Virus record (IMG/VR): IMGVR_UViG_3300022680_000066
Span: 1-63,322 of that record
DNA: 63,322 nt
From: a virus
Reading direction: 5' to 3' (one strand)
Shown: piece after piece, positions 3,321 through 63,147 of the stretch
Layout: the number at the start of each line of letters is the position of its first letter
How positions within the stretch are numbered: position 1 is the stretch's first letter
Translations under genes and position numbers: made by a program
The notes under the pieces: generated by a model
Database searches by the model: none
Seen by the model: only the letters and a program-made list of their open reading frames with translations
Told to the model about the DNA's origin: nothing

Positions 3321-3580
3321 ACTTACTAACAGATGAAAATGAACTGGTCGGCAAGGTCATAAAAGAAGCGAAGATTAACTTATTAAAAGAAGACCTGGCT
3401 CTGGTTTTTGAAGACGGTACATACGCCGTAGTTAGTGCATCAGCCTTTGGCTGTAATTATGAGTTACGCCTCAACACAGATATAAGTGAGGCAGTACTCG
3501 CCGAGTTTGGCCTTTTAACTGATGCAGAAAAAGAAGGCACCATAGACTTCGACGACATGCTCTACATCTCCCTCTTGTGA
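3317..3580 (+). pseudogene. Small phage gene truncated by insertion of a helicase-gene fragment
   Basis: Encodes 87 residues. The first 72 look like an ordinary small phage protein. The last 16 codons (KEGTIDFDDMLYISLL) are identical at protein level to residues 180-195 of the UvrD-type helicase at 58770. The DNA from 3530-3579 matches 59307-59356 at 49 of 50 positions, and the single difference is synonymous. Deleting 3537-3586 joins this frame to the downstream ORF at 3577-3693 and restores a 108-residue protein ending in AKYPDA. So this is probably an intact gene broken by a 50-bp copy event. The truncated product may still be made. Confidence 0.8.
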
Positions 3581-4165: not shown

Positions 4166-5722
4166 ATGTTCTGTAACCGCGTAGTCCTTGTCCCACTATC
4201 GGACATCATCATCAAGCCTGGTCGTCAGCGTACCCAGATCCCGCCCGAGTCCGTGCTTGAGCTAGCCGAGTCCATCGCACACAAGCAGTGGATATCCCCG
4301 ATCCTCGTTGATCAAGATACCAACCAACTCGTAGCTGGTGAGCGCCGATACACCGCAGTCAGTCTATTGTGCGCTGCTGTCAACGGAGATTATTCTTCCT
4401 TCGCTGATCCCAAGGCCGCTCAAGAAATCCTCTACCCTGTTCAATCTTGCAAGGTCGAATCATGGCAGAACTGGACAAAGATCCCTGCCCAACTCGGCAG
4501 CAACTTCACCGAGCTTGATCTCCTATCCTACGAGTTCATCGAGAATCACCAGCGCAAGGACTTGTCATGGCAGGATAAAGCCAGAGCCGTCTACCAGATT
4601 CATGTCGAGGGACTCAAGACCGAAGGCTCCAACTGGAACAACACGCTCACCGGAAAGGCCACCGGCTTAGACCACTCAACTGTAGCCAAGTACCTAAAGG
4701 TCTGGCGGCCAATGGAGGACAACCCAACAAAAGAGATCGAGCTGATCCTTAAGGAATCTCCAACGCTTAATAGCGCTCTCCAATCACTCAGTCGTCACAT
4801 CAGTCGCAGACAAGACCAAGTCATATCTCTCACCACATCGACAACCAACATCAAAAGAAGTTTGCCTGAGCTAGACCAGCCTAATCTTGTCAACCCCATC
4901 AAGAAGCCAGGTCCGCAGTCCGGCACACCGAAGACCGAGGAAGGCGGGCTAACCCTCCCTGAAGAAACAGACGAAGAGTGGGAAGACCTCGTCGAGGCGC
5001 AAGCAATTACTTTTGGTGAGACCCTGCTGATCAACGCTGACGCACATAAATGGGCTGCTGATTACACCGGCCAACCGTTCAACTTTCTTCATTGCGACTT
5101 CCCCTACGGCATTGACTTCAACACCGGGGCACAAGGCAAGACCGTCGATGCCCAGCTCACAAATGATTATGACGACAGCGAAGATGTTTATTGGGCTTTG
5201 CTTGACACATTATCCCACCGTGCAAAGAGTTTGATTGCAGATTCTGCTCATATTTTATTTTGGTACTCACAAAATTTAGAAGCAGAAACAGAAACTTATT
5301 TTGCCAAGTACTTACCTGAAGCCACAGTCCAGAAATTCAAAATGATATGGCATTGCAGCGACGGCAACGGCATTGTGCCCGATCCACAACGGTACGGACG
5401 GCGCACGTATGAAACCGCCATGCTGTTAACCTTTGGTGATCGTAAAATCGTCGCGCCCAAGGCATTGTCCTTCGCCGCCCCACGTGGCACATCATCCCGT
5501 ATCCACCGAAGTCAGAAACCCGTGGCCGTCCTCCACCATTTCATGAGCATGTTTGTAGACGATGCATCCAGCGTCCTGGATTTGACTGCGGGCAGCGGCA
5601 CATCCCTGCTCGTCGCTCATCAGCTCGGGGCCAAGAGGATTACGGGCCTGGAGATCAGCGGCGAAGCATACATGGACGCAATAGCTTTCCTTAATGCACG
5701 ACAAGAGACCATAAGCTTATGA
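4166..5722 (+). CDS. ParB/HTH-DNA methyltransferase fusion (N6-adenine or N4-cytosine type, beta order)
   Basis: A 518-residue fusion. Residues 1-70 are a ParB N-terminal nuclease-like domain with the GERR box at 58-61. Residues about 130-182 are a ParB/KorB-like helix-turn-helix (ATGLDHSTVAKYLKVW). The C-terminal half is an amino-methyltransferase: motif IV is DFPY (311-314, a DPPY variant) and the SAM-binding motif DLTAGSGT starts at D472. Motif IV before motif I is the beta order. I chose ATG 4166 because GAAGGAG lies 8 bases upstream and the open frame upstream runs through a hairpin. ParB-methylase fusions are common in phages as self-protection enzymes. Here the phage also carries a canonical parS site at 49105, so DNA targeting through the ParB module deserves attention. 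Confidence 0.85.
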   Translation: MFCNRVVLVPLSDIIIKPGRQRTQIPPESVLELAESIAHKQWISPILVDQDTNQLVAGERRYTAVSLLCAAVNGDYSSFADPKAAQEILYPVQSCKVESWQNWTKIPAQLGSNFTELDLLSYEFIENHQRKDLSWQDKARAVYQIHVEGLKTEGSNWNNTLTGKATGLDHSTVAKYLKVWRPMEDNPTKEIELILKESPTLNSALQSLSRHISRRQDQVISLTTSTTNIKRSLPELDQPNLVNPIKKPGPQSGTPKTEEGGLTLPEETDEEWEDLVEAQAITFGETLLINADAHKWAADYTGQPFNFLHCDFPYGIDFNTGAQGKTVDAQLTNDYDDSEDVYWALLDTLSHRAKSLIADSAHILFWYSQNLEAETETYFAKYLPEATVQKFKMIWHCSDGNGIVPDPQRYGRRTYETAMLLTFGDRKIVAPKALSFAAPRGTSSRIHRSQKPVAVLHHFMSMFVDDASSVLDLTAGSGTSLLVAHQLGAKRITGLEISGEAYMDAIAFLNARQETISL

Positions 5723-15542: not shown

Positions 15543-16796
15543 ATGCGGCAAAAGCAACTCCCGAGAGTATTACCCGACCTGCTAGATACTCTTGCTGAGT
15601 ATTTCGAGTACACCCACGCAGCAGATATATTTAAAAAATGGGGAGGTCTCTTTCTCCTGAGTGGTACTTTGTCGCGGAAATGTTGGGTCATAGCTGACCC
15701 TACCTTTCCACCCCTCTATCCCAACCTCTACATCTTGTTGACTGGTGCGCCCGGCTCAGGCAAAGACGCAATCATCAACAAGATTGTGGAGATCCTGCGC
15801 GGTGCGCATGAGGGCCTCGAACAGGGTGCGGGCTTCCAGTTCTCAGGTCGCTCCCTCTCACCCAAGGGCGTAATTGATTTGTTGGCCAGTGAAGATTCTG
15901 AATTTACTTTCAAAGTCAGGATAGCAGGCAAAAGCCGGACAGAAAAATACCACTCATTCCTCTTATGTGCGCCCGAACTCACAACCGTAATGCCCGTCTA
16001 CAACACACAGTTGGTTGCCTTCCTGAACGAGCTTTACAACTGCTCACCCCTCTTTGAAGAGCAAGTCCGGGGCCGGGGCACAGTATCTCAAGTATCTATC
16101 AAGAACCCACACGTAGCCGCCTTCATGGGAATCCAACCGGCCACCCTGTTTGAGATCTTTCCCGAGCAAGCATTCCGCATGGGCTTCTTCTCCCGTGTCA
16201 ATCTTGTGTATGCTGACGAAACTTTTGCAGCCAGACCGTTCGACCGGAGCCGCCCTGATCGGTCGCATCTCCTGGCCAAGCTTGTCTCTGATGTCCGTAG
16301 CATCTCCCAACTGTCGGGGGAGTTCAAGCTCACAATCGAGGCCGAAGAAATCATCACGGACTTTGCTCAAAACGCACCAGGCAAACTAAAGCAATCTCGC
16401 TACGTAGACTACAACGTCCGACGTTGGATGCACCTCACAAAGATCTCCATGTTGTGCGCAGTCAGTGAAGGAAACAAACTGTTGATCGAGGCCAAGCATG
16501 TGCAGCGAGCAATGACCTTCCTGCTTGAGGCTGAAAAGGAGATGCCCAAGGTATTTGAAAACATCACAACCTCTGATGGGTTTGAGTCCACAGTCGAGCA
16601 ACTGCTCGTGAACACAAAGGACGCAACCATCACCCACCAGCAACTCGAACGGGCTTTGCGTCGCACCCATAAACCATACGAAGTCGGCCAGATCATTGCG
16701 TCCATGCTTCGTGCAGGAGATTTAGAGGAAATACCTACCAAGGCAGGATTACCCAAATACAAAGTTACAGAAGAAACCAAACGTAGTTTACACTAG
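15543..16796 (+). CDS. P-loop ATPase of DUF3987/phage helicase-primase type
   Basis: A 417-residue protein with Walker A TGAPGSGKD (K74) and a body like DUF3987 proteins, in which a helicase-like ATPase domain often follows a primase domain. Only the ATPase half is present here. The C-terminal 90 residues look like a small winged-helix domain (ATITHQQLERALRR onward). It probably contributes to replication fork loading. No DnaB-like helicase or DnaG-like primase is otherwise seen, so it is the best candidate for that function. Start ATG 15543 is forced by an in-frame stop two codons upstream; the ribosome binding site is poor. Confidence 0.65.
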   Translation: MRQKQLPRVLPDLLDTLAEYFEYTHAADIFKKWGGLFLLSGTLSRKCWVIADPTFPPLYPNLYILLTGAPGSGKDAIINKIVEILRGAHEGLEQGAGFQFSGRSLSPKGVIDLLASEDSEFTFKVRIAGKSRTEKYHSFLLCAPELTTVMPVYNTQLVAFLNELYNCSPLFEEQVRGRGTVSQVSIKNPHVAAFMGIQPATLFEIFPEQAFRMGFFSRVNLVYADETFAARPFDRSRPDRSHLLAKLVSDVRSISQLSGEFKLTIEAEEIITDFAQNAPGKLKQSRYVDYNVRRWMHLTKISMLCAVSEGNKLLIEAKHVQRAMTFLLEAEKEMPKVFENITTSDGFESTVEQLLVNTKDATITHQQLERALRRTHKPYEVGQIIASMLRAGDLEEIPTKAGLPKYKVTEETKRSLH

Positions 16797-17068: not shown

Positions 17069-20000
17069 TCACTTCTTCATCCTACTTTCAAACGTAGCCA
17101 CAAACCTTCTCTGCACAGACTGTATCCGCTCCTTCAGCATCTCAACTCGCTTCTTGTCTCCCCTTCCTTGTGCCGCCCTCATCCGCGTCCGTAGACTTTT
17201 GAGCTGTCTCTCCACATCCTTCACATGACTCACAAGCCGCAGTTCCTTCTTATACTTCTCCTTAGCCTCAGCCCGCTTCTCCAAATCCCTCGTTGGCCCA
17301 CGACCGTAGTCTTTGACTGCCCGTTCAGCCGACAAGACAGCGGCCACCCGATCATAATACTTCTGTGTGTCGATCGAGGTTCCAGGACGAGTTGTTAGCT
17401 GTCGGAGAATTGGCACGTTCCGTAGCTCAAGCTCTTGCTCCGCAATATCCTGTGGCATACCCAAGACGTTCATCCCAAAGCGGGCAAGTCCGCCACCCAG
17501 GAAGTTTACAGTATTCTGGATCGTTGAGGGCGCGACATCAATCCAGCCCGAGTGCGCCACATCTCCACCTGACCACTCATTGATCTTCCGGGCCAACCAC
17601 TTATACTCATCAGGAGTTGACTGCCATGCGAGTTGTGAATCTGGCTTGTGTCCTGCGCCAGGGAAATTGATCGGGCGTAATTGGTTCCCGGCAAAATCCT
17701 TATTCTCAATAACTTGTATCAGGGGATCTAATGCCGTGGGGGTAAGCGCCTGAGCAACCGTTCCGCCGCCCATTGGATTAAACGTGGACAAAACCAATGA
17801 TGCAGTTTCGCTGGCCGTATCCGCCGCCGTACGTGCGCCAGCTGCCGTTTCACTTAACATACCGCCCAAACGCCATACGGTGTTATACACCCACGGAGCA
17901 GGGATCTTGATATACGTCCCATCAATCGGTATGGGCAGTATAATGTTCCGATCCTTCCCGGTTATCTTGTCCCATTCATTGTTCCCCTGTTCATCCTCAT
18001 CAGCCAACGCTCGTCCGATCAGATCAAACAAGGCAGCCATTACAATCGTGCCGCCTACCATGCTGGCCAGCTTCTTGCTCTTCGAGATATTCCGAATAAC
18101 CTGAGCGTTGCCCTGGATAGTGGCGTTAAAGAACAAATACAGCAGGCCCATTGCCGAGGACTTAAACCCGCGCCGATCAAAGTTAGTGGTGAGGTCCTTG
18201 GCTATCCGAGCTGCTTTATCCGCCCCAACCTTATCGTGCAAGACTTCGAATGTAGAAAGTCGCATCACATTCTCAATAGCAATATTCGTGTTCTCAATCT
18301 GCTCAAACAACCGCACGACCTGCTTGATGCCTGGAGTCCCCTCCGCCTTCATTGCGCGCTCAAAGCTCTTGAACGAGCTGTCCATCTCCTTCAGGGACTG
18401 AGTGAATGAGATCTTGCCGCCCGCCTTCTCAAACCGCTCAACCATCTGCACAGCCGGAGAGTCTGGATCACGATTCCCCCGCACAAACACATCAATCAAC
18501 GCACTAAAGGACTCTTTATATTTGCCCTTGATCTCGTTGGTGTAGTTCCCTGCTTCAGTCGCCTGCATATTATAGAGTGCGGTCAACGGATCACGAATCA
18601 TATTGGCAAGCAAGAACGAGGGCGAGGCACTAATTGCTGTGAACCGTACAATACTATTCACCCACCCAAAGACCTTGAACACACCTGAGGCTTCTTGCGC
18701 GCCCAACCGATTCGCGGCCGCAGCAAACAACATAGCCCGCTCGTTCTGCTCAATAGGACTAATGACCAGCCGCTTCCCATCACGCAGCACGACTAAGTCT
18801 GTGGGCTCTAGCCCCTTCGTGACTCCTTCTACAACGAAGCCCAGCTCTGTGTGTCGCTCCCTTGCTTTGTCCTCACCAACCGTAAACCAACCTGTCCAGT
18901 TCTTCCGATCAGCCATAATCTCTTCATAGAGGAAATTGTTGGCCAAGTTCCTCTGTGCACTTCCTGCCGCCCCGTGCAGCTTAGCAAAAGTGTTCTGCAT
19001 CACATGGATAGGTGGGCTTACGTCAGCCGAGCCGCCCCGCACAGACACACCCTTTGAAGGCCCAGGACTGCCCTGTTTAAGGAAGCCAAACTGAGACTCG
19101 TAGTCAAATTTCTCGCGACGCAAAGGTACGTAGTGAGGATTCTCCGCAAGCAAATTCGTGCGCTCATCTGTCGTAATCGTGCCGCCCTCTTGCAGCATGT
19201 CCAGCTGCTCAGTCGTCATCTTGTCATACAGCTCAGCAACCTTTGCGACTTTTGGATCTTCCGCATACCGGCCATAGACTTCTGCTGCATCCATGGCTCC
19301 GCCCCGATTGTCCAACCCAGAACGAGCGTCGTACATTCCCGAAGCATGGCGTTTGAAGTCTTCCCACTCTTCCTTGGTCGCCTGTCGTTGTGTGCCTGTC
19401 CGCTGATCAAGACTCGTTTGTTCCTGATCAGCGTACTCATTCATCAAGTTGAACATCTTCTTACGGATCTGTTTTGGCTCGAGTTTTTGCTGTAACAGCT
19501 CTGTCTTCTTGGCCTCCAGCTCAATCCGCGCAGGCTTGTCCAGGTGCTTGACCAGCTTGTTGATGTACTGGAGGGACGACCGCTCAGCCAGATTCTGATT
19601 CACGTTGTCGAGCATGATGTGACGAGCCGCGAGCCAGTCATCGACCTGTTTTAAATCAAGTCCTGTCTCCCGCACAAGCCCTTTCATTGGCTCAAGAAAA
19701 TTCCTATTGACCTCATCAATCATAGCAGACCGACGAGATTTGGACAGGTCATAACGATCCCAGACTGCCTCACTCTTCTTCTCCATCGTCCACATGTCGT
19801 CGTAATAGTCAGCCAGGAATCGCTGTGCCCGGCTCAGTTGGAGAGACTCTTCTGGTTTCGGCCACAACTTTTTACGAGCAGCTTCCGTTAGGTCGGCAGC
19901 ACTCTCCAACTCGGTCTGTTCCCTCAAATTATCAAGCAATTGTTGCTCAGGTAGACTGACAGCTGGCCCAGGCTTAACAGGTTTGGCCCAGGCCTCACTA

Positions 20001-22915
20001 TCTTGTGCGGGAGGTAGTCCGGCAGCCTCAAGAAACCTATCACTAATCAAATCCCCTGCAGCCGCAAGGTTTTGTTGATAGTCGCTTGTCTCACTAAACA
20101 ACTCAAACCCTTCGTCAAGGACCTCTTCTCGCATCTCAGGTGTGATAGGGAATGACCAAGCTCTTTGTGCCACATGATCGGCCGCTCCAATATCTTCTCC
20201 CATAACCTCTCTTACAGTTCTAAGTTGACTATATGCTTCTGCATCGAGAATCACTTCATCCGTGCCTACGCGCACCTTAAAGCGCTTAAGAAGTTTGTTT
20301 GCCTGATTGCGCAAGATGTTGTCGTAAAAGGCCTGCATCCCTTCGCCACCAATTTCTAGGTCAAGTCCGCTGAGATAAATATCTCCTTCTGCATCAGGTT
20401 GTGTTTGTGTAAGTTTTTCTGCCATTTCCTTGCCAACATGATCAGCCAGTTCATTTGTAGTCACTCCTTCAACTAACTCTTGCATTGAACTCCCGGGCGT
20501 CTTTGCCTTAGCAAATAACGTCCAAGTTCCATCTTCTTCTTGTCGAGCAGAAAGGGCTTCGATTTGCTTATTCAGAGCGTATCTCTCCGCTTGTGTCTTG
20601 CCGCTCGTCCAAGCAACCTGTTGAAACCCTCGCTTAGCTGCGTGCCGAATCATGCGTTTCAAAACAAGCGAAGGCCAAGAAGTTTTGAAAGGCGCGTCGG
20701 GGACGCCAGCGCCCTGTAAAAGCTGCCCTACACCTGACTGCTTTAAATCTGCAAAGGCCTCCGCTTTTGTATCCCCAAACCCAGAATAAGAGCCTTGTCC
20801 GTCCTTTCGAGTAAATTTAAACTCAACCTCGCTTATTTGAACAACAGTAAAGTCTTCAAGAGATACCTCTCTCTGATACCCTCTCTTCCTTCCCTCTTGG
20901 TGCCAATCACTCTGTACTTCTTCAATAAACAGTGTTTTCTTTCTGTCCAGATACCGCTCATTAAACCTTACGTGCGCAAGAACATTCGGTTCATCGTAGT
21001 GACCTGCACGAAATTGTTCTGCGCTTTCCGGGAGCCGCAGCAATACTTCATGGTAGTTTTTTGAAGCACCTGAAGATTGATATCCTGTGTACTTTGGCTC
21101 GCTTACATCTGTCTCTTCAAGCTGTACTCCGTCTTGCTCAATAAAACTTACCAGCTCCTCACGAGTCAACTTGTCTTGTTCCTCTGCCCACTCCTTGACT
21201 CCAAGCCACTCAAGCTCTTCCTTCTTTACTCCAGGTTGCTTAGCAAGCATCTGATACATCTGCTTGCCTGTACCTTTAGCCTGCTTCAATTCTTGGGCAG
21301 CCCGCGCAGTCTGCGAGTAGAACCCTTCAACCGCACTTTCCAGCACGCTTTCAACAACAGCCGCTGATTCGGGATCAGTCATCCAGCGCTTGATCTCTCT
21401 CTGCACTGTCACATCTCCTGACTGGGCAAACAGTTGCCCTATTGCAGGATAATCCCCTGGAGTCTTCTCCCCTTCAAATCCGAGCCATCCATCTTGATCG
21501 GCCATAATCTTATCGACTTGGCTGAGCACCATCTCCCGTATCTCGCCTGAGTCTTCTGCACGAGAGTCAATGTAAATTACATCTCCATTCCGAGTGGCTT
21601 CTCCCGTATCCATACGAGCGTACCGAACGCTATAATTCCGTAACTCAGGATAGTTCTCGAACAACAGGTTGTCTTCCAGGATATCTTCCAGCGTCTTGAC
21701 TTTCTCTTGATCAATCCGCTCCTTGATCAATATCTCACTCTCATCAACACTGACCTTCGGCTTCCCGTCCTGTACATAAACACCGGTGTCCCGCAACACG
21801 AGTGCTTGCACTGCTGGGTCTGGGTCTGTTCCAAGCATCTCTTCTGCCGAGGCCAGCTGCTCTTTAGTCGGTGCTTTAGTCGAGTTGACACTTCCTCCCG
21901 TACCGGACTTCGCGTCAAGTGTCTGCTGTAGTTGCTGTCTGGTTTTAGCGATTTCGAGAGTAGATCTCAGCGCTTCTTTAGCCAGCTCCACTGCCATCTC
22001 TGGTGTAAGCTCAATCTTGATCCCAACAGCTCTGGCCGCATGACCAAGCAGGGATAATTCAAACGTAACCTTCAAAGCATTCATGATGCGACGAAAGATA
22101 CCGCTGGCTTGGCCTTGATCCACGGAGTGTTGAATATAATAAGCCACAATCTCTTCACGAGCCACGAACCCAGCTTTGTCGTTTGCCAGGATCTGTGCAG
22201 GAGTCATCTCTGCTGCTTTCGCCTGTGCAACTGCGCGCTGGGCTATCTCACCTCCGGCCGCAGCTTGCCTTACAATGTCACTCGCATATTCACCGAGCCG
22301 CCCGCTCAGCAACCTGTTCATCCCACTGTGCGAGCCTTCATGCAGAAGCAGTCCAACCGTTGAGCGGTCAACGTGCTGAGTCCCGCCGTATAAGGTGATC
22401 GTTTTGTCTCTGAGATTGTACACACCCTGTAATGAACGATAGCCGCCTTTTGGATTCTTTTGTATCTTTCGGCCTGCGTCCAGAGTCAACACACCTGTCT
22501 CTTCCAGAGCGTCAACCACACTCTTACCAAAGAATTCATAAAGCTCCTGCCGCATCTCGTCTGGGGTCTTCACCACAAGCTCAGCTTCTTGCTTTGGAGT
22601 CAGTTTCGCATGAGGGTCGACAGGAGCAACCGGCTCAACAGGAGCAGCTTCTGGTGCTGCTTCAGGGGCTGGCGTCGGAGCCACCTCCTCTATCTTGGGC
22701 TGCACATACTGAGGCATGCCTGCTGCTTCGCGCGCCAGTGAATCGACCTCCAGCTGACTCTGAACCTCCGTACCCAGGAGCTCCTGCACAGCCTGTAGTC
22801 TGGCCTTCGGAGCATCCATACCTCCGTGACGCAAAGCACCAATGTTCCTTTGCAGCTGTTTTATTTCATCAGGTTTAAAAACGCCATCAAGTACTTTTAT
22901 ACACTCGTTGCTCAT
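17069..22915 (-). CDS. Large polyvalent virion protein (metallopeptidase-like and LPD-type domains)
   Basis: A 1948-residue protein, about 9% of the genome. Residues 70-105 are a Pro/Ala/Glu linker. Residues about 115-300 form a metallopeptidase-like domain with HEGSH at 192-196. Near 665 an IEEVQSDWHQEG motif begins a domain frequent in phage polyvalent proteins (with PFKTSWPSLVLKRM downstream). Residues about 1390-1720 resemble the LPD38-type domain with hydrophobic helices, and the C-terminus is a basic coiled coil. Such proteins are packaged and ejected with DNA and act early on the host. It is the last gene of the leftward arm. DNA for the 590-925 region is more AT-rich than its surroundings, suggesting a swapped-in domain. 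Confidence 0.8.
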   Translation of the reverse strand: MSNECIKVLDGVFKPDEIKQLQRNIGALRHGGMDAPKARLQAVQELLGTEVQSQLEVDSLAREAAGMPQYVQPKIEEVAPTPAPEAAPEAAPVEPVAPVDPHAKLTPKQEAELVVKTPDEMRQELYEFFGKSVVDALEETGVLTLDAGRKIQKNPKGGYRSLQGVYNLRDKTITLYGGTQHVDRSTVGLLLHEGSHSGMNRLLSGRLGEYASDIVRQAAAGGEIAQRAVAQAKAAEMTPAQILANDKAGFVAREEIVAYYIQHSVDQGQASGIFRRIMNALKVTFELSLLGHAARAVGIKIELTPEMAVELAKEALRSTLEIAKTRQQLQQTLDAKSGTGGSVNSTKAPTKEQLASAEEMLGTDPDPAVQALVLRDTGVYVQDGKPKVSVDESEILIKERIDQEKVKTLEDILEDNLLFENYPELRNYSVRYARMDTGEATRNGDVIYIDSRAEDSGEIREMVLSQVDKIMADQDGWLGFEGEKTPGDYPAIGQLFAQSGDVTVQREIKRWMTDPESAAVVESVLESAVEGFYSQTARAAQELKQAKGTGKQMYQMLAKQPGVKKEELEWLGVKEWAEEQDKLTREELVSFIEQDGVQLEETDVSEPKYTGYQSSGASKNYHEVLLRLPESAEQFRAGHYDEPNVLAHVRFNERYLDRKKTLFIEEVQSDWHQEGRKRGYQREVSLEDFTVVQISEVEFKFTRKDGQGSYSGFGDTKAEAFADLKQSGVGQLLQGAGVPDAPFKTSWPSLVLKRMIRHAAKRGFQQVAWTSGKTQAERYALNKQIEALSARQEEDGTWTLFAKAKTPGSSMQELVEGVTTNELADHVGKEMAEKLTQTQPDAEGDIYLSGLDLEIGGEGMQAFYDNILRNQANKLLKRFKVRVGTDEVILDAEAYSQLRTVREVMGEDIGAADHVAQRAWSFPITPEMREEVLDEGFELFSETSDYQQNLAAAGDLISDRFLEAAGLPPAQDSEAWAKPVKPGPAVSLPEQQLLDNLREQTELESAADLTEAARKKLWPKPEESLQLSRAQRFLADYYDDMWTMEKKSEAVWDRYDLSKSRRSAMIDEVNRNFLEPMKGLVRETGLDLKQVDDWLAARHIMLDNVNQNLAERSSLQYINKLVKHLDKPARIELEAKKTELLQQKLEPKQIRKKMFNLMNEYADQEQTSLDQRTGTQRQATKEEWEDFKRHASGMYDARSGLDNRGGAMDAAEVYGRYAEDPKVAKVAELYDKMTTEQLDMLQEGGTITTDERTNLLAENPHYVPLRREKFDYESQFGFLKQGSPGPSKGVSVRGGSADVSPPIHVMQNTFAKLHGAAGSAQRNLANNFLYEEIMADRKNWTGWFTVGEDKARERHTELGFVVEGVTKGLEPTDLVVLRDGKRLVISPIEQNERAMLFAAAANRLGAQEASGVFKVFGWVNSIVRFTAISASPSFLLANMIRDPLTALYNMQATEAGNYTNEIKGKYKESFSALIDVFVRGNRDPDSPAVQMVERFEKAGGKISFTQSLKEMDSSFKSFERAMKAEGTPGIKQVVRLFEQIENTNIAIENVMRLSTFEVLHDKVGADKAARIAKDLTTNFDRRGFKSSAMGLLYLFFNATIQGNAQVIRNISKSKKLASMVGGTIVMAALFDLIGRALADEDEQGNNEWDKITGKDRNIILPIPIDGTYIKIPAPWVYNTVWRLGGMLSETAAGARTAADTASETASLVLSTFNPMGGGTVAQALTPTALDPLIQVIENKDFAGNQLRPINFPGAGHKPDSQLAWQSTPDEYKWLARKINEWSGGDVAHSGWIDVAPSTIQNTVNFLGGGLARFGMNVLGMPQDIAEQELELRNVPILRQLTTRPGTSIDTQKYYDRVAAVLSAERAVKDYGRGPTRDLEKRAEAKEKYKKELRLVSHVKDVERQLKSLRTRMRAAQGRGDKKRVEMLKERIQSVQRRFVATFESRMKK

Positions 22916-44186: not shown

Positions 44187-45797
44187 TTAGTAGCCCATCA
44201 CACTGTCTTTGGGCTGCCACCCGGACGAGCCCCTTCTGCCAAAGAATTCTTCATCATTCGAAATCGCCCTGATGAGGGGTGCGCGAGTTTGAGCAAAGGA
44301 AAGAGTAAAACTATCCCACCGATCAGGGGAACGGGAAGCAGCTTTGTCCTGCTTAGACCGGCCTGTTGCAAATCGAGCCCGATAATCGTCTTTGGACTCA
44401 ATAAGGAGCAGGCCGCCCTTGTGCGTGGATTGGATTGCCGAGGCCTGGCTCTCGAAAATATGGTCATTCGGCAGGGAACATTCGGTTTCCTTCACATAAT
44501 CATAAGCCTGTTGATGTAGCCAGGCCCGCACATTGTAATTTTTGCCGTCCTTCAGCTTCGCGCCCGTGTGGAGAGCGACAAGAATAGAAGCGAACGGGCC
44601 ATAGGCAAGCTGATCGGCACATGAGCCGCCCGGCCCGTCGCGTTCAATAGCGATAACACGCAAAGGGCCAGTAGAAAGCAGGGCTGTGCACTTGCGCTCA
44701 ACCACAGCAGCCAGCTGAACACCATCCATGCCCTTGTAAGTCTCAGGCTCAACACTGATGCGCCCCTTTCGCGCCCATATCACGATCTCATCGTTGCCCT
44801 GGCCGGCTGCGTCGATACCTACAGACCAAGGCGTGTCAGGAGCCTGCTGAATATCTTGGGTCTTCCTCGCAATCGCGGCCTTCAGTGCATCCACATCCAT
44901 AAAAGTATTCGCGGCGGAGGCATGATAATTACGATTGACCTGGCTTGCAAGCGTGGTAGGCAACAATTCCCGGACCTGCTTCTTGTACCAGGGCTCCTCT
45001 TCAGGCGGCAGGTCAGGATTCAGGCGTTTGCGTGGATCATCTTTCCAATCAAAGATGAAAATCTGGTCATTTGGCAGAAAATGCCGCAGCCTATAGAAGA
45101 GATTGCCTGGCCCATTCACGGTCGAGACATATATACGGCAATCAGTGTTGGCACTCAGGGCGCTCTCTGCCATGTCAGGGTGCTCAAGATGAGCGAACTC
45201 GTCCACAAAGTAAATGCCTGCGCGGCCACCTCGCCCAATCTCATCACCAATCTCGCCCTTTATAACAGACTTGTTGGAATGATTGGGAACTGACATCAGC
45301 TTACGACCCTGTTTAATATTTGAGGGCAAGAACTCAACAGGTAAATGGTCGATGAACATCCTGATCTTCCAGAAGATAGAGTCAGGATCGGCTTCACCAT
45401 TGTCTACGAGTTCCTTTTTACGCGAGCCAAAGCCAACAACAGCATGAGGCACAAACAGCCATATACAGACCGCGCAGGCGACACAGAGCCAAGTGAATCC
45501 GACCTCGCGACTTTTCTCCGCAAGCCCACGTCGGCCACTCAGGAACAACCCTTGAACCCACTCAACGTACTCCTCTTGCTTGGGGAACAAGATAAATGGA
45601 GAGTATTTCTCTCCCTGCTTCCGGGGATCATAAGTCATTCCCCAGTCATTAATAAAATCGACCCAGTTCTCAGCATAATATGCCTTCAGCTGGGCCAAGG
45701 CTTGAGGATTCTCACGCAAACGACTCAGAGCTTCCGTCCGCAATTCATAGATCTTGGTGTAGTCCGGGGCTCGCCAATCAAGCTCGATGCCTTTCAT
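44187..45797 (-). CDS. terL: Terminase large subunit
   Basis: A 536-residue protein. The ATPase P-loop variant is AEKSREVGFTW (K95), and Walker B is GIYFVDEFAHLE (D199, E200). The nuclease domain has VGIDAAGQGNDE (D329), VIAIERDG (near 385), and PDRWDSFTL near the C-terminus. It packages DNA and cuts concatemers. It overlaps terS by four bases and is followed by a dispersed repeat and the portal gene. Packaging type (pac or cos) is not evident. Confidence 0.9.
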   Translation of the reverse strand: MKGIELDWRAPDYTKIYELRTEALSRLRENPQALAQLKAYYAENWVDFINDWGMTYDPRKQGEKYSPFILFPKQEEYVEWVQGLFLSGRRGLAEKSREVGFTWLCVACAVCIWLFVPHAVVGFGSRKKELVDNGEADPDSIFWKIRMFIDHLPVEFLPSNIKQGRKLMSVPNHSNKSVIKGEIGDEIGRGGRAGIYFVDEFAHLEHPDMAESALSANTDCRIYVSTVNGPGNLFYRLRHFLPNDQIFIFDWKDDPRKRLNPDLPPEEEPWYKKQVRELLPTTLASQVNRNYHASAANTFMDVDALKAAIARKTQDIQQAPDTPWSVGIDAAGQGNDEIVIWARKGRISVEPETYKGMDGVQLAAVVERKCTALLSTGPLRVIAIERDGPGGSCADQLAYGPFASILVALHTGAKLKDGKNYNVRAWLHQQAYDYVKETECSLPNDHIFESQASAIQSTHKGGLLLIESKDDYRARFATGRSKQDKAASRSPDRWDSFTLSFAQTRAPLIRAISNDEEFFGRRGSSGWQPKDSVMGY

Positions 45798-48536: not shown

Positions 48537-49064
48537 ATGAACATCAAATTAAACGCAACCGTAGGTGGCCATCCATACCAATTAGACCAACAGGTCATCA
48601 ATGAAGCAGGGGAATTGACCCCGATTGCCATAGGTCTACTAACACGAGGCTTTCAAAAGATCCTAACTGACGCACACAGCACATCAAAACGCGGATCAGG
48701 CGAAAATGAACGCAAATCCACACCAGAAGAACGTCAAGAGGATGTGGAAAAACGACTAGCCAAACTCATAGATGGAACGTACTCATTCGGTGGTGGCGGA
48801 AGAACCACATCAACACCAGAACAAAAAGCACTAAAACACACGTTACAAAAGTATGGCATCAAATTCGCCAAAGGCCAAACCATCGAAAATGGTTTAGAAG
48901 CACTAGCAAAAGCCATCGCAGGACAAGCCAATAAGGATTTTGAACCCGAAATGACCCAAACCATCAAAACCCAATTGGAAGAAACCGACATATACAAGAC
49001 AAAACTCGAGGCAGAACGCCAATCAAACAATCCTATCCCAACAGCAGCCATGTTGAAACTCTAA
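48537..49064 (+). CDS. Hypothetical early protein, helical
   Basis: A 175-residue polar protein. Residues about 50-75 are rich in Glu, Lys and Arg; a central helical stretch (EQKALKHTLQKYGIKFAKGQ) is followed by a charged C-terminus. It is the last gene before the intrinsic terminator at 49074. No family recognised; possibly a host-interacting protein given its early position. Confidence 0.6.
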   Translation: MNIKLNATVGGHPYQLDQQVINEAGELTPIAIGLLTRGFQKILTDAHSTSKRGSGENERKSTPEERQEDVEKRLAKLIDGTYSFGGGGRTTSTPEQKALKHTLQKYGIKFAKGQTIENGLEALAKAIAGQANKDFEPEMTQTIKTQLEETDIYKTKLEAERQSNNPIPTAAMLKL

Positions 49065-49073
49065 AAACCGCAC

Positions 49074-49100
49074 AAAATTGGTCAAGGATGACCAATTTTT
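49074..49100 (+). terminator. Intrinsic terminator of the first early operon
   Basis: AAAATTGGTC (49074-49083), loop AAGGAT, GACCAATTTT (49090-49099), then T. A 10-bp stem with U-rich 3' side 10 bases after the stop codon of the gene at 48537. It separates the early operon from the parS region. Confidence 0.82.
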
Positions 49101-49104
49101 GATA

Positions 49105-49120
49105 TGTTTCACGTGAAACA
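49105..49120. other. parS: parS site (ParB-binding centromere sequence)
   Basis: TGTTTCACGTGAAACA, a perfect 16-bp palindrome and an exact copy of the canonical chromosomal parS recognised by ParB/Spo0J in most bacteria. Single copy as far as I can see. It lies five bases after the terminator and at the edge of a non-coding region. It could load host ParB onto phage DNA, or be bound by the phage ParB-HTH-methyltransferase (4166). No ParA gene is recognised. Confidence 0.9.
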
Positions 49121-49229
49121 TCACAAGCAATACACAATCTCCCAGCAAATCCCTACAAAAAACCCCAAACTCCCATCAAATCACCCAAAAACTATCACAA
49201 AAACCCAGTTCAAACATATTCACGTCATG

Positions 49230-49297
49230 CGTTTTTTGCACAACCAATTTCTGTAACCCGTTAATTTTAAACGAGTTTTTCCGTTTTCCGCACAACC
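49230..49297 (+). repeat. Iteron-like repeats CGTTTTxxGCACAACC
   Basis: CGTTTTTTGCACAACC (49230-49245) and CGTTTTCCGCACAACC (49282-49297) differ at two of 16 positions and are 52 bp apart. Two more ACAACC words follow at 49324 and 49333. Iteron-like, close to parS and the AT-rich tract. Confidence 0.6.
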
Positions 49298-49436
49298 TGT
49301 ACCATACCTCCACCACATCACGTACAACCGACACAACCAGCACTACCACCTAATGCACAAAACACAAAGCAAACCCCCAAAAAACGCGCCGACCCCCTGA
49401 AATATGAAAAATATATTATATGTATATACCCTCCTT

Positions 49437-49510
49437 AGGGCTTCGCCCTGCGGAGCAGGCAGAGCCACTCACCCAACCTACCTCCCACGCTCTCAGGCAG
49501 AGCCACTCAC
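49437..49510 (+). repeat. Hairpin plus 17-bp direct repeat
   Basis: AGGGC-TTC-GCCCT (49437-49449) forms a short GC stem. CAGGCAGAGCCACTCAC occurs exactly at 49456-49472 and 49494-49510, spacing 38 bp. Non-coding; function unknown. Confidence 0.75.
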
Positions 49511-49925
49511 AGCCTATCACCCATCTCACCTATCACCCGCTCAGCCCCGCTATATTCACGTTTCGCCCCCATTTTCCGTCATGTGCATTGCGCCCCAAGG
49601 GGTTGTGTAGGTTGTTTTGGTTGAGCGCAATATGGTGCAGGTATGATGCTGGTTATACAAAACGCCACCACACGACGATCACCCAAAACCACGACCGCCC
49701 CATCAACAAACCACAATAACCCCGCACAACGCACCACACGCGCCACACACCCCCATCACACCCACCATATAAGGAACAACCCCGCGCCGCCAACCAACCC
49801 GCCGCCAATGCGAATTAAAAGTTGCATTCCCGCCCCACATGACATACCATACCAATACGGCGCGGCAAAACCACGCCCCAACCTGCCCAACCGGCAGCCA
49901 CACAACCCGACAAGGAGCACACAAC

Positions 49926-53890: not shown

Positions 53891-54076
53891 ATGGACTTTT
53901 ACACAAAACTATTCTTAATCAACCTAGTCGTGCTCATTCTCACCGTGTGCGCAGGCATCTTCATACCCAACGACGCACTCGATCGCAGTCGTATTGTGCC
54001 CTTGCTCAGCCTGTGGGTAGTGGTCACAGCAGTATCCATACCTGCCTGGGTCATATACGCAATCATCACCTCATAA
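53891..54076 (+). CDS. Two-span membrane protein (61 aa)
   Basis: A 61-residue protein with two membrane segments (about 7-26 and 38-58) joined by a short charged loop (PNDALDRSRI). GGGAG precedes the ATG. It is the first gene behind the promoter at 53814. Might alter the host membrane or exclude other phages; no family. Confidence 0.6.
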   Translation: MDFYTKLFLINLVVLILTVCAGIFIPNDALDRSRIVPLLSLWVVVTAVSIPAWVIYAIITS

Positions 54077-58769: not shown

Positions 58770-60251
58770 ATGACCGACAAACTTACACCACAACAAGAAA
58801 CCTTTCTTGCCACGGCTGAGCCAGGCAACCGAGAGTCCATCGCTCTCCGTGCGAGAGCGGGTACGGGCAAGACTTACAGTCTCCGAGGCTGGGCCTCCAG
58901 TGCAAAGGGCGGAGGCCTCGCAACATCCTTCAGCAAATCCACCGTCATGGAGCTGGGCAACAAGATGCCCACCAAATTCCAGTGCAAGACCCAACACGGC
59001 CTAGGTTACGCAGCTATCCGAAGCTCCGGCAAGTTCACCCAGATGGACTCATCCAAGATCTTCAACCTCGTCGGAGACTTCGGCAAGGACAACGACATTG
59101 ACTTCCGTGATCAGGGTGACTTGCGCAAGCTCATTTCCTTGGCCAAGACCTTCGGCATCCAACCAGACCGGAATGGGCCGGAAGGCCTCATCCAAGACAC
59201 CTATGATAACTGGGAGCAGATGGCTGAAAACTTCGACATCGACATCGGAAAGCACACAATCGAACACGCTCGCCACCTCCTAAAGGAATCCAACCACCTC
59301 GCCTTGAAAGAAGGCACCATAGACTTCGACGACATGCTCTACATCTCCCTTTTGTGGCCGCACCGATTCCCACGCTACCCCACAATCCTAGCCGACGAGG
59401 TTCAGGACTTCAACAGCCTCCAGCACCTCATGCTTCGTCGCCTTCTTCTTCCGAATGGCCGCCTCATCGCAGCCGGTGACGACCGCCAAGCAATCTACGC
59501 ATTCCGTGGAGCCCTTGCCGACTCATACACTCAGCTCGTCCAGGACTTCGGCATGACCGAGCTTCCCCTAACCGTATCCTTCCGATGCCCACGAGCAGTC
59601 GTGCTTGAGGCCCAGCAATACGTGCCAGATATCGAGCCAGCCCCAGGAGCCATCGAGGGCAGTGTCACATACCCCTCTTCCTTGGCCCTGGCCGACGTTC
59701 CAAAGACAGTCCTATGCCGCAACAACGCTCCCCTAATCCGCCTAGCCCTGGCCCTCCTCGTGAGCGGACGCACGGTTGAGGTCGCGGGCCAGGATATAGG
59801 CAAAGGGCTCGTAACCCTCACCAAACGCATAACCAAGAAGAACCTGCCAAGCCAGGAATTCCAAGCCCGCCTCACCAAATGGCGTGACCGCGAAACGGCT
59901 AAGTATCCACGCAGAAAGGGACGCATCAACGACAAGTTCATGGCCCTGCATGCTTTGTCCCAACACCACCGAGACTTGGCCGGAATACAGAAGCACCTGT
60001 CCGAGTTGTACCCTAATCTAGACAACAAGAACCGACGCCCAGCCGATGTCCACCTCACGACTATCCACCGGGCAAAGGGCCGCGAGTGGCCGCAAGTCCT
60101 CTTCCTCGACCCCCAGCTCCTCCCATCCGAGTACGCAACATCCGAGCAGGATCGTTTGCAGGAGGCCAACCTTGCCTACGTGGGCGTGACTCGGGCACAG
60201 GAGGAACTTGTTTATTGTCCATCTCACAACATCGAAGGACTGGAGGAATAA
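58770..60251 (+). CDS. UvrD/Rep-like superfamily 1 DNA helicase
   Basis: A 493-residue helicase. Motif I ARAGTGKT (K34), motif II LADEVQD (D209, E210), motif III GDDRQAIYAFRGA, motif V TTIHRAKGREW and motif VI YVGVTRAQEEL are all present, so it should be active 3'-5'. Shorter than UvrD, like other phage SF1 helicases. The segment 59307-59356 (residues 180-195) is the donor of the 50-bp copy at 3530. It may work in replication restart or recombination. Confidence 0.9.
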   Translation: MTDKLTPQQETFLATAEPGNRESIALRARAGTGKTYSLRGWASSAKGGGLATSFSKSTVMELGNKMPTKFQCKTQHGLGYAAIRSSGKFTQMDSSKIFNLVGDFGKDNDIDFRDQGDLRKLISLAKTFGIQPDRNGPEGLIQDTYDNWEQMAENFDIDIGKHTIEHARHLLKESNHLALKEGTIDFDDMLYISLLWPHRFPRYPTILADEVQDFNSLQHLMLRRLLLPNGRLIAAGDDRQAIYAFRGALADSYTQLVQDFGMTELPLTVSFRCPRAVVLEAQQYVPDIEPAPGAIEGSVTYPSSLALADVPKTVLCRNNAPLIRLALALLVSGRTVEVAGQDIGKGLVTLTKRITKKNLPSQEFQARLTKWRDRETAKYPRRKGRINDKFMALHALSQHHRDLAGIQKHLSELYPNLDNKNRRPADVHLTTIHRAKGREWPQVLFLDPQLLPSEYATSEQDRLQEANLAYVGVTRAQEELVYCPSHNIEGLEE

Positions 60252-60255
60252 CCTG

Positions 60256-60483
60256 ATGCTCAAAAACCCCTACATAAAATTCCGAGCCATGGGAATTATA
60301 GCCATGCTGATCCTAGTCTGGCCCTCCTGCTGGCTTCTCTTCGCTATCGACCTTGGCTGGGCAACTCTACCTGCTTTGCTAATGGTAGCAGCTGTTTACG
60401 GCTTTCTTCTTGCATACGACAAAGCAGCAAGAGACTCAATAGCACAATGGAAACGTGACGAGGAGCCCTCCCAATGCCCTTAA
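60256..60483 (+). CDS. Two-span membrane protein (75 aa)
   Basis: A 75-residue protein with two membrane segments (about 12-31 and 36-55) and a charged C-terminus (DKAARDSIAQWKRDEEP). GGAGG before ATG 60256 decides the start. Overlaps the next gene by ten bases. Function unknown; holin-like topology is possible. Confidence 0.6.
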   Translation: MLKNPYIKFRAMGIIAMLILVWPSCWLLFAIDLGWATLPALLMVAAVYGFLLAYDKAARDSIAQWKRDEEPSQCP

Positions 60484-62695: not shown

Positions 62696-63147
62696 TGAGC
62701 ATACAACCAGAGAATTTATTCGGCCCTATCCCTCAAGAAGTTCTCAACGAACTCTCAAGCGAAGAGCACATGCAGCACGCAATCGAGGCAGGCGCTGAAG
62801 AGGCAAAAAGCCTGCTGTCTGTCACAGTGTATAACGGAAAATACACCGTCATCCAAGAAGCCAATGGAGCAGTACGTGCCCTTCGATACAACGAAGAGTG
62901 GCGAGATTGCTGCGGTGATGGGCTTATCCTTGCGCTTGCTCAAGAAGTAGACACACTGAGACAGATGCCTGAAGAAGCTACCAGCACAATTGCGAAAGAA
63001 TTACGCAATGCATTAGATCGGGCTGCCTACGCACTGTTTCAGGTAAAACGAATGAGTGGAGCAACCGACGATATTATCAGTCATGTATCTGCTGCACACG
63101 AGAAAGCTTGCAACACGTTAAATAAAATTGACGAGGAATCTCATTGA
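62695..63147 (+). CDS. Hypothetical protein before the nuclease gene
   Basis: A 150-residue acidic protein. N-terminal helices and a central beta strand (VTVYNGKYTVIQEANGAVRA) precede a helical C-terminus. Coupled on both sides by TGATG overlaps. No family recognised. Confidence 0.6.
   Translation: MSIQPENLFGPIPQEVLNELSSEEHMQHAIEAGAEEAKSLLSVTVYNGKYTVIQEANGAVRALRYNEEWRDCCGDGLILALAQEVDTLRQMPEEATSTIAKELRNALDRAAYALFQVKRMSGATDDIISHVSAAHEKACNTLNKIDEESH

Follow-up and report, generated by a model that had tools for sequence, protein, structure and literature searches.

Chromosomal parS usually lies between genes, close to the replication origin. It is established that ParB is loaded at parS, shuts into a CTP clamp that can slide along the DNA, and contacts both ParA and SMC (PMC12704722; PMC7333895, PMC12511625). 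A related palindrome, TATTTCCCGGGAAATA, is the binding site of the ParB paralog Noc. The nearest viral case is phi29, whose genome holds four exact TGTTTCACGTGGAACA sites, one of which lies against the stop codon of gene 16 and against a bidirectional terminator; host Spo0J is described as trapping the phage's DNA in spores (PMC9437464, citing Meijer 2005). The use of parS by a virulent phage is already known from phi29, a precedent absent from the original prediction made for the DNA analysed here. To our knowledge, phi29-type phages are the only ones for which the action of host ParB on the genome of a virulent phage is an accepted idea, and a search of a literature lying mostly outside subscription journals found no published survey of parS in virulent phages.

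We examined a 63,322-bp virus record (hereafter the window, meaning the whole stretch of DNA analysed) for the setting of one candidate parS site. The features of the locus are as follows.

48537 to 49064, + strand: gene for a 175-aa protein, the marker of the locus in relatives.
49074 to 49099, + strand: intrinsic-terminator-like hairpin (11-bp stem, 4-nt loop, T-rich tail).
49105 to 49120, no strand assigned: parS, TGTTTCACGTGAAACA, within an 18-bp perfect palindrome ATGTTTCACGTGAAACAT (49104-49121).
49065 to 49925, no strand assigned: 861-bp non-coding region, a candidate replication origin or control region.

The 16-mer TGTTTCACGTGAAACA is the consensus chromosomal parS, the same as the consensus parS of the experiments in PMC7383237; as a 16-bp palindrome it fits TGTTNCACGTGNAACA and, as first claimed, it is present exactly and only once in the record, the second-best match in the window (at 63035) having 3 mismatches. 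Both half-sites are TGTTTCAC, no Noc-type TATTTCCC half-site was found at the window site, and the site, unlike that of Noc, is pure parS at both of the positions that discriminate the two. A first-order Markov model, the source of the expected counts for the 4-word family TGTTYCACGTGRAACA, gives 7e-5 expected matches in the window; the earlier chance estimate of 1.5e-5, made for one word, was of the right order of magnitude.

The placement described by the original prediction, after a terminator and at a non-coding edge, was also correct. The hairpin, predicted from sequence to terminate the transcript of the 175-aa gene, ends 5 bp before parS; the RNA fold of 49060-49135 has z = -4.0, and the parS palindrome, as RNA, forms a 7-bp stem 3' of the terminator. 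No PHROG or Pfam match was obtained for the 175-aa protein, and an Rfam search of the window gave no match. parS itself is intergenic, at the edge of the long non-coding region, where no supported gene was found but only short, overlapping ORFs on both strands. The + strand of this region is G-poor with strong strand asymmetry (A 0.32, C 0.36, G 0.14, T 0.18), the motif ACAACC occurs at 6.9 per kb vs 0.9 genome-wide, and an AT tract is also present; the region is probably a replication origin or control region. Non-coding counterparts in seven related contigs (G004, G013, G006, G007, G021, G025, G026) are likewise G-poor on the early-gene strand, with recurring ACAACC-type motifs and TATATA tracts, and are a candidate phage replication origin.

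Two further genes of the window, together with that for the 175-aa protein, served as queries by which relatives were recruited from IMG/VR.

44187 to 45797, - strand: terminase large subunit, TerL (phrog_2, E 1.4e-21).
58770 to 60251, + strand: UvrD/Dda-type helicase (phrog_1967, E 1.1e-78; PF00580).

The window also encodes PolA, primase, ligase, RNase H and portal proteins. Among about 30 window proteins examined there was no integrase, ParA or repressor; this content is consistent with the lytic type originally proposed, a lifestyle that gene content does not itself prove. No tRNA genes were found in the window. Positions 17069-22915 encode a 1948-aa protein that combines an LPD38 large-polyvalent-protein domain with an endolysin-like stretch. 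No cultured relative was found at the DNA level, the best TerL identity to cultured phages being about 42% or less, and a search of genome contigs gave no match.

Homologs of the 175-aa gene stand at the same place in G004, G013, G006, G007, G021 and G025 (the last two weaker); G026 is a further relative with the non-coding region, but the contig end cuts off its upstream part. parS-like sites were found in three of these relatives.

G007 (TerL 73%), position 60477: TGTTCCACGTGGAACT, directly after a terminator and downstream of the 175-aa gene homolog.
G006 (TerL 73%), positions 21270 and 21323, 53 bp apart: TGTTCCACGTGGAACA and TGTTTTACGTGAAACA.
G026 (helicase 58%), positions 54017 and 54049: a pair of sites that follow a terminator, on the margin of a similar non-coding region.

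Matches to TGTTYCACGTGRAACA with at most 1 mismatch numbered 5, vs 0.011 expected, in 8 group contigs (265 kb), so the site is not a product of chance; all 5 were at the locus or its apparent counterpart, with none elsewhere in the 265 kb. The layout of G007 is that of the window (gene, terminator, parS), whereas the G006 sites stand just upstream of the 175-aa gene homolog with no preceding terminator. For G026 the counterpart is assigned by layout, the upstream gene being beyond the contig end; its site at 54017 is within 1 mismatch and that at 54049 has 2. This pair (L164, 54017-54064) has parS/Noc hybrid half-sites, TGTTTCACGGGAAATA being half parS and half Noc-type and the other site being TGTTTCCCGTGAAACA, which suggests, from sequence, that the host ParB or Noc has a specificity between the two, or that the site is changing. 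The window site, the G007 site and one member of the G006 pair keep the CACGTG core; positions 5 and 12 swap jointly among relatives (TTT/AAA to TCC/GGA), and both common parS variants occur within the phage group.

The conservation expected of related phages was found in part: variants are present at the locus or its counterpart in G007, G006 and G026, and no parS-like sequence is at the locus in G004, G013, G021 or G025. Since these four do without it, parS is dispensable in the group, in which, judged by this distribution, it has been gained and lost. G004 and G013 are the closest relatives that include the locus. The original prediction was to be abandoned if close relatives with otherwise conserved flanks lacked the site; the site is indeed absent from both, but their non-coding flanks give no detectable alignment to the window, although the genes do align, and we therefore read the absence as turnover of a fast-evolving region and not as a clean refutation.

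At least 120 IMG/VR stretches contain the exact 16-mer and at least 120 the TCC variant, compared to 1 match for each of two control palindromes of the same base composition (one reversed, one with a single swap). This amounts to an over-representation of parS in viral contigs of at least 100-fold; the parS counts are minimum values, and bacterial DNA wrongly classed as viral may be among the contigs. Among the matches listed, 73 of 146 exact sites were intergenic, vs a non-coding share of about 13% in that DNA as given by a simple ORF caller. None of the 43 parS-bearing viral records checked (most of at least 25 kb) had a ParB HTH domain over cutoff. Annotated cultured phages with the extended site came to 374 records vs 12 for the control; they include phi29-like, Listeria A511-type, Lactobacillus, Microbacterium, Gordonia and Ruegeria phages, and part of the matches fall inside annotated genes. 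In Ruegeria phage DSS3P8 the 18-mer falls between genes, as does CGTTTCACGTGAAACA in Pelagibacter phage HTVC027P (record position 16412). A separate marine phage family also carries exact parS (L101, L007, L027, L045, L066, L097, L119 and others); in L101 the site occupies 3451-3466, between genes and immediately upstream of TerL. The GenBank relatives of this family include HTVC027P and DSL-LC04, and parS is absent from the first 50 kb of the latter. Four other records (L017, L044, L010, L063) have 3-5 exact copies each, some tightly arrayed, and no HTH_ParB over cutoff in any of them; these may be either genuine phages with parS arrays or bacterial DNA wrongly assigned to viruses.

Our preferred explanation, which taken whole we consider probable, is that the phage borrows host ParB by means of a chromosomal-type parS that serves genome segregation. 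Host ParB (Spo0J) would recognise parS at 49.1 kb, form a closed CTP clamp and spread by sliding across the adjoining non-coding region; host ParA (and SMC) would then tether phage genomes to the host segregation machinery. A genome that is infecting, or replicating slowly, may thereby be positioned and inherited while the host is unready for a productive burst. The parts of this account differ in strength. Binding of host ParB to the phage site is, on sequence grounds, very likely: parS is over-represented, it recurs at one locus among the relatives and phi29 offers a precedent, all of which uphold the original suggestion of a functional host-type parS, and we infer loading at 49.1 kb, and with it the binding, from the established clamp mechanism. 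That the benefit would be segregation or retention of the phage genome while infection is deferred, argued by analogy, we put at even chances; phi29 points this way, and so small a number of sites (one or two) close to a likely origin looks more like a centromere than like a sink.

Local silencing of transcription is our next choice. Host ParB might be recruited for regulation, its spreading silencing promoters or insulating the late/early junction and origin region, and we regard this as unlikely, though a serious competitor. The site adjoins a terminator at the edge of a control region, the two G006 sites lie just upstream of a gene, and in Pseudomonas aeruginosa ParB represses promoters adjoining parS3 and parS4 (per the accessible text of PMC5521831); but the position of the site relative to genes differs among relatives, and no promoter adjoining the window parS rises above shuffle expectation.

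The phage's own proteins offer another possible ligand. ParA (PF13614) was found in 0 of 13 group records while 14 of 14 controls were positive, and no HTH_ParB domain over cutoff was found in the phage. The only ParB-like protein found in the group is a fusion, conserved there and of an architecture (ParB-HTH-methyltransferase) reported to be common in phages (PMC12704722).

4166 to 5722, + strand: ParB-CTPase-fold + HTH + N6/N4 DNA methyltransferase fusion, 518 aa from the ATG at 4166.

The fusion was recognised by PF02195 and PF01555 and by a PDB ParB/Noc profile match that includes the HTH; homologs are in G022, G007 and G026, and its gene is about 18 kb from parS even on a circular genome. 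It has an insert of ~35 aa between the ParB boxes and a divergent recognition helix (window 4166-5722; L222, L224, L225), and a structure predicted for it from four sequences had a mean pLDDT of 54, with only the HTH helices moderately confident. That this protein targets the site, as the original prediction had allowed, for example to guide methylation or to regulate phage genes, is now improbable. All three near-complete parS-bearing genomes of the group (window, G007, G026) encode it, and it carries the ParB boxes GERR and EN-QR and a ParB-type HTH. However, an ungapped profile alignment of the recognition helix to Spo0J and Noc, with position 201 aligned by eye, gave residues H-Y-R-N, H-Y-R-N, H-C-R-Q and K-S-R-K at 173/179/184/201, and not RTAG; the equivalents of R173 are H/H/H/K and those of G201 N/N/Q/K, whereas both residues are invariant among ParB orthologs (PMC7383237). 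parS is, moreover, widespread in viruses without a ParB HTH domain. Because the fusion lacks the invariant R173 and the group lacks ParA, the likely ligand is host ParB.

That the site is a decoy, soaking up host ParB and upsetting segregation of the host chromosome (the "disturb" or "sequester" of the original prediction), is very improbable. With phage DNA at high copy number, even a single site on each genome could compete with the few chromosomal ones; but there are one or two sites per genome and no arrays, and the site is lost in close relatives. Chance, or an RNA hairpin element such as a second terminator or stabiliser stem, we reject as scarcely credible: although the palindrome folds to its short stem after a terminator, relatives preserve parS-specific bases and not just any paired bases, the G006 sites follow no terminator, and both the counts and the control palindromes speak against it. 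A partition cassette of the phage's own is rejected too, there being no ParA gene and no canonical ParB adjoining parS.

If borrowing of host ParB is the true explanation, a single parS would make host ParB treat a phage genome as a chromosome origin in a deferred or slow infection, and host-centromere mimicry would reach well past the sporulating Bacillus case. Recurrence of parS at one locus in a phage group unrelated to the phi29 type, with its excess in viral contigs that have no ParB genes, suggests that the host segregation machinery is a common phage target. We offer only tentatively, as somewhat doubtful, the wider proposal that such mimicry is a widespread and repeatedly gained strategy of otherwise lytic phages without partition proteins.

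Compared to known systems, the locus is closest to phi29, which also has exact host-type parS in a phage genome that lacks its own ParA/ParB partition pair, and one such site at a terminator between gene blocks. phi29 differs in having four sites of mixed TTT/GGA form genome-wide, protein-primed replication and a sporulating host, whereas the window phage, known here from sequence alone, is a 63-kb PolA phage with one perfect palindrome. SGI1, in the accessible text of PMC10954446, hijacks the parABS of an IncC plasmid and is alike as a mobile element exploiting the partition system of another replicon; it concerns a plasmid system in Gammaproteobacteria, in contrast to a chromosomal-type parS in a virus. 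The CtrA-binding regions of Alphaproteobacteria phages, for which "lytic deferment" was proposed (PMC9437464), are alike in that a virulent-type phage maintains, within a large intergenic region, sites bound by a cell-cycle protein of its host; their protein is the transcription factor CtrA and not ParB, and the CtrA motif TTAA-N7-TTAA has zero occurrences in the whole window. The parABS-carrying extrachromosomal mycobacterial prophages (PMC7157519) likewise bear a parS-type site on a phage genome, but they have partition genes of their own and replicate in plasmid form, whereas the window is without ParA or canonical ParB. New to us, against this background, are the lineage itself, the locus that its members share and at which the site varies, and the census of parS in viruses without ParB.
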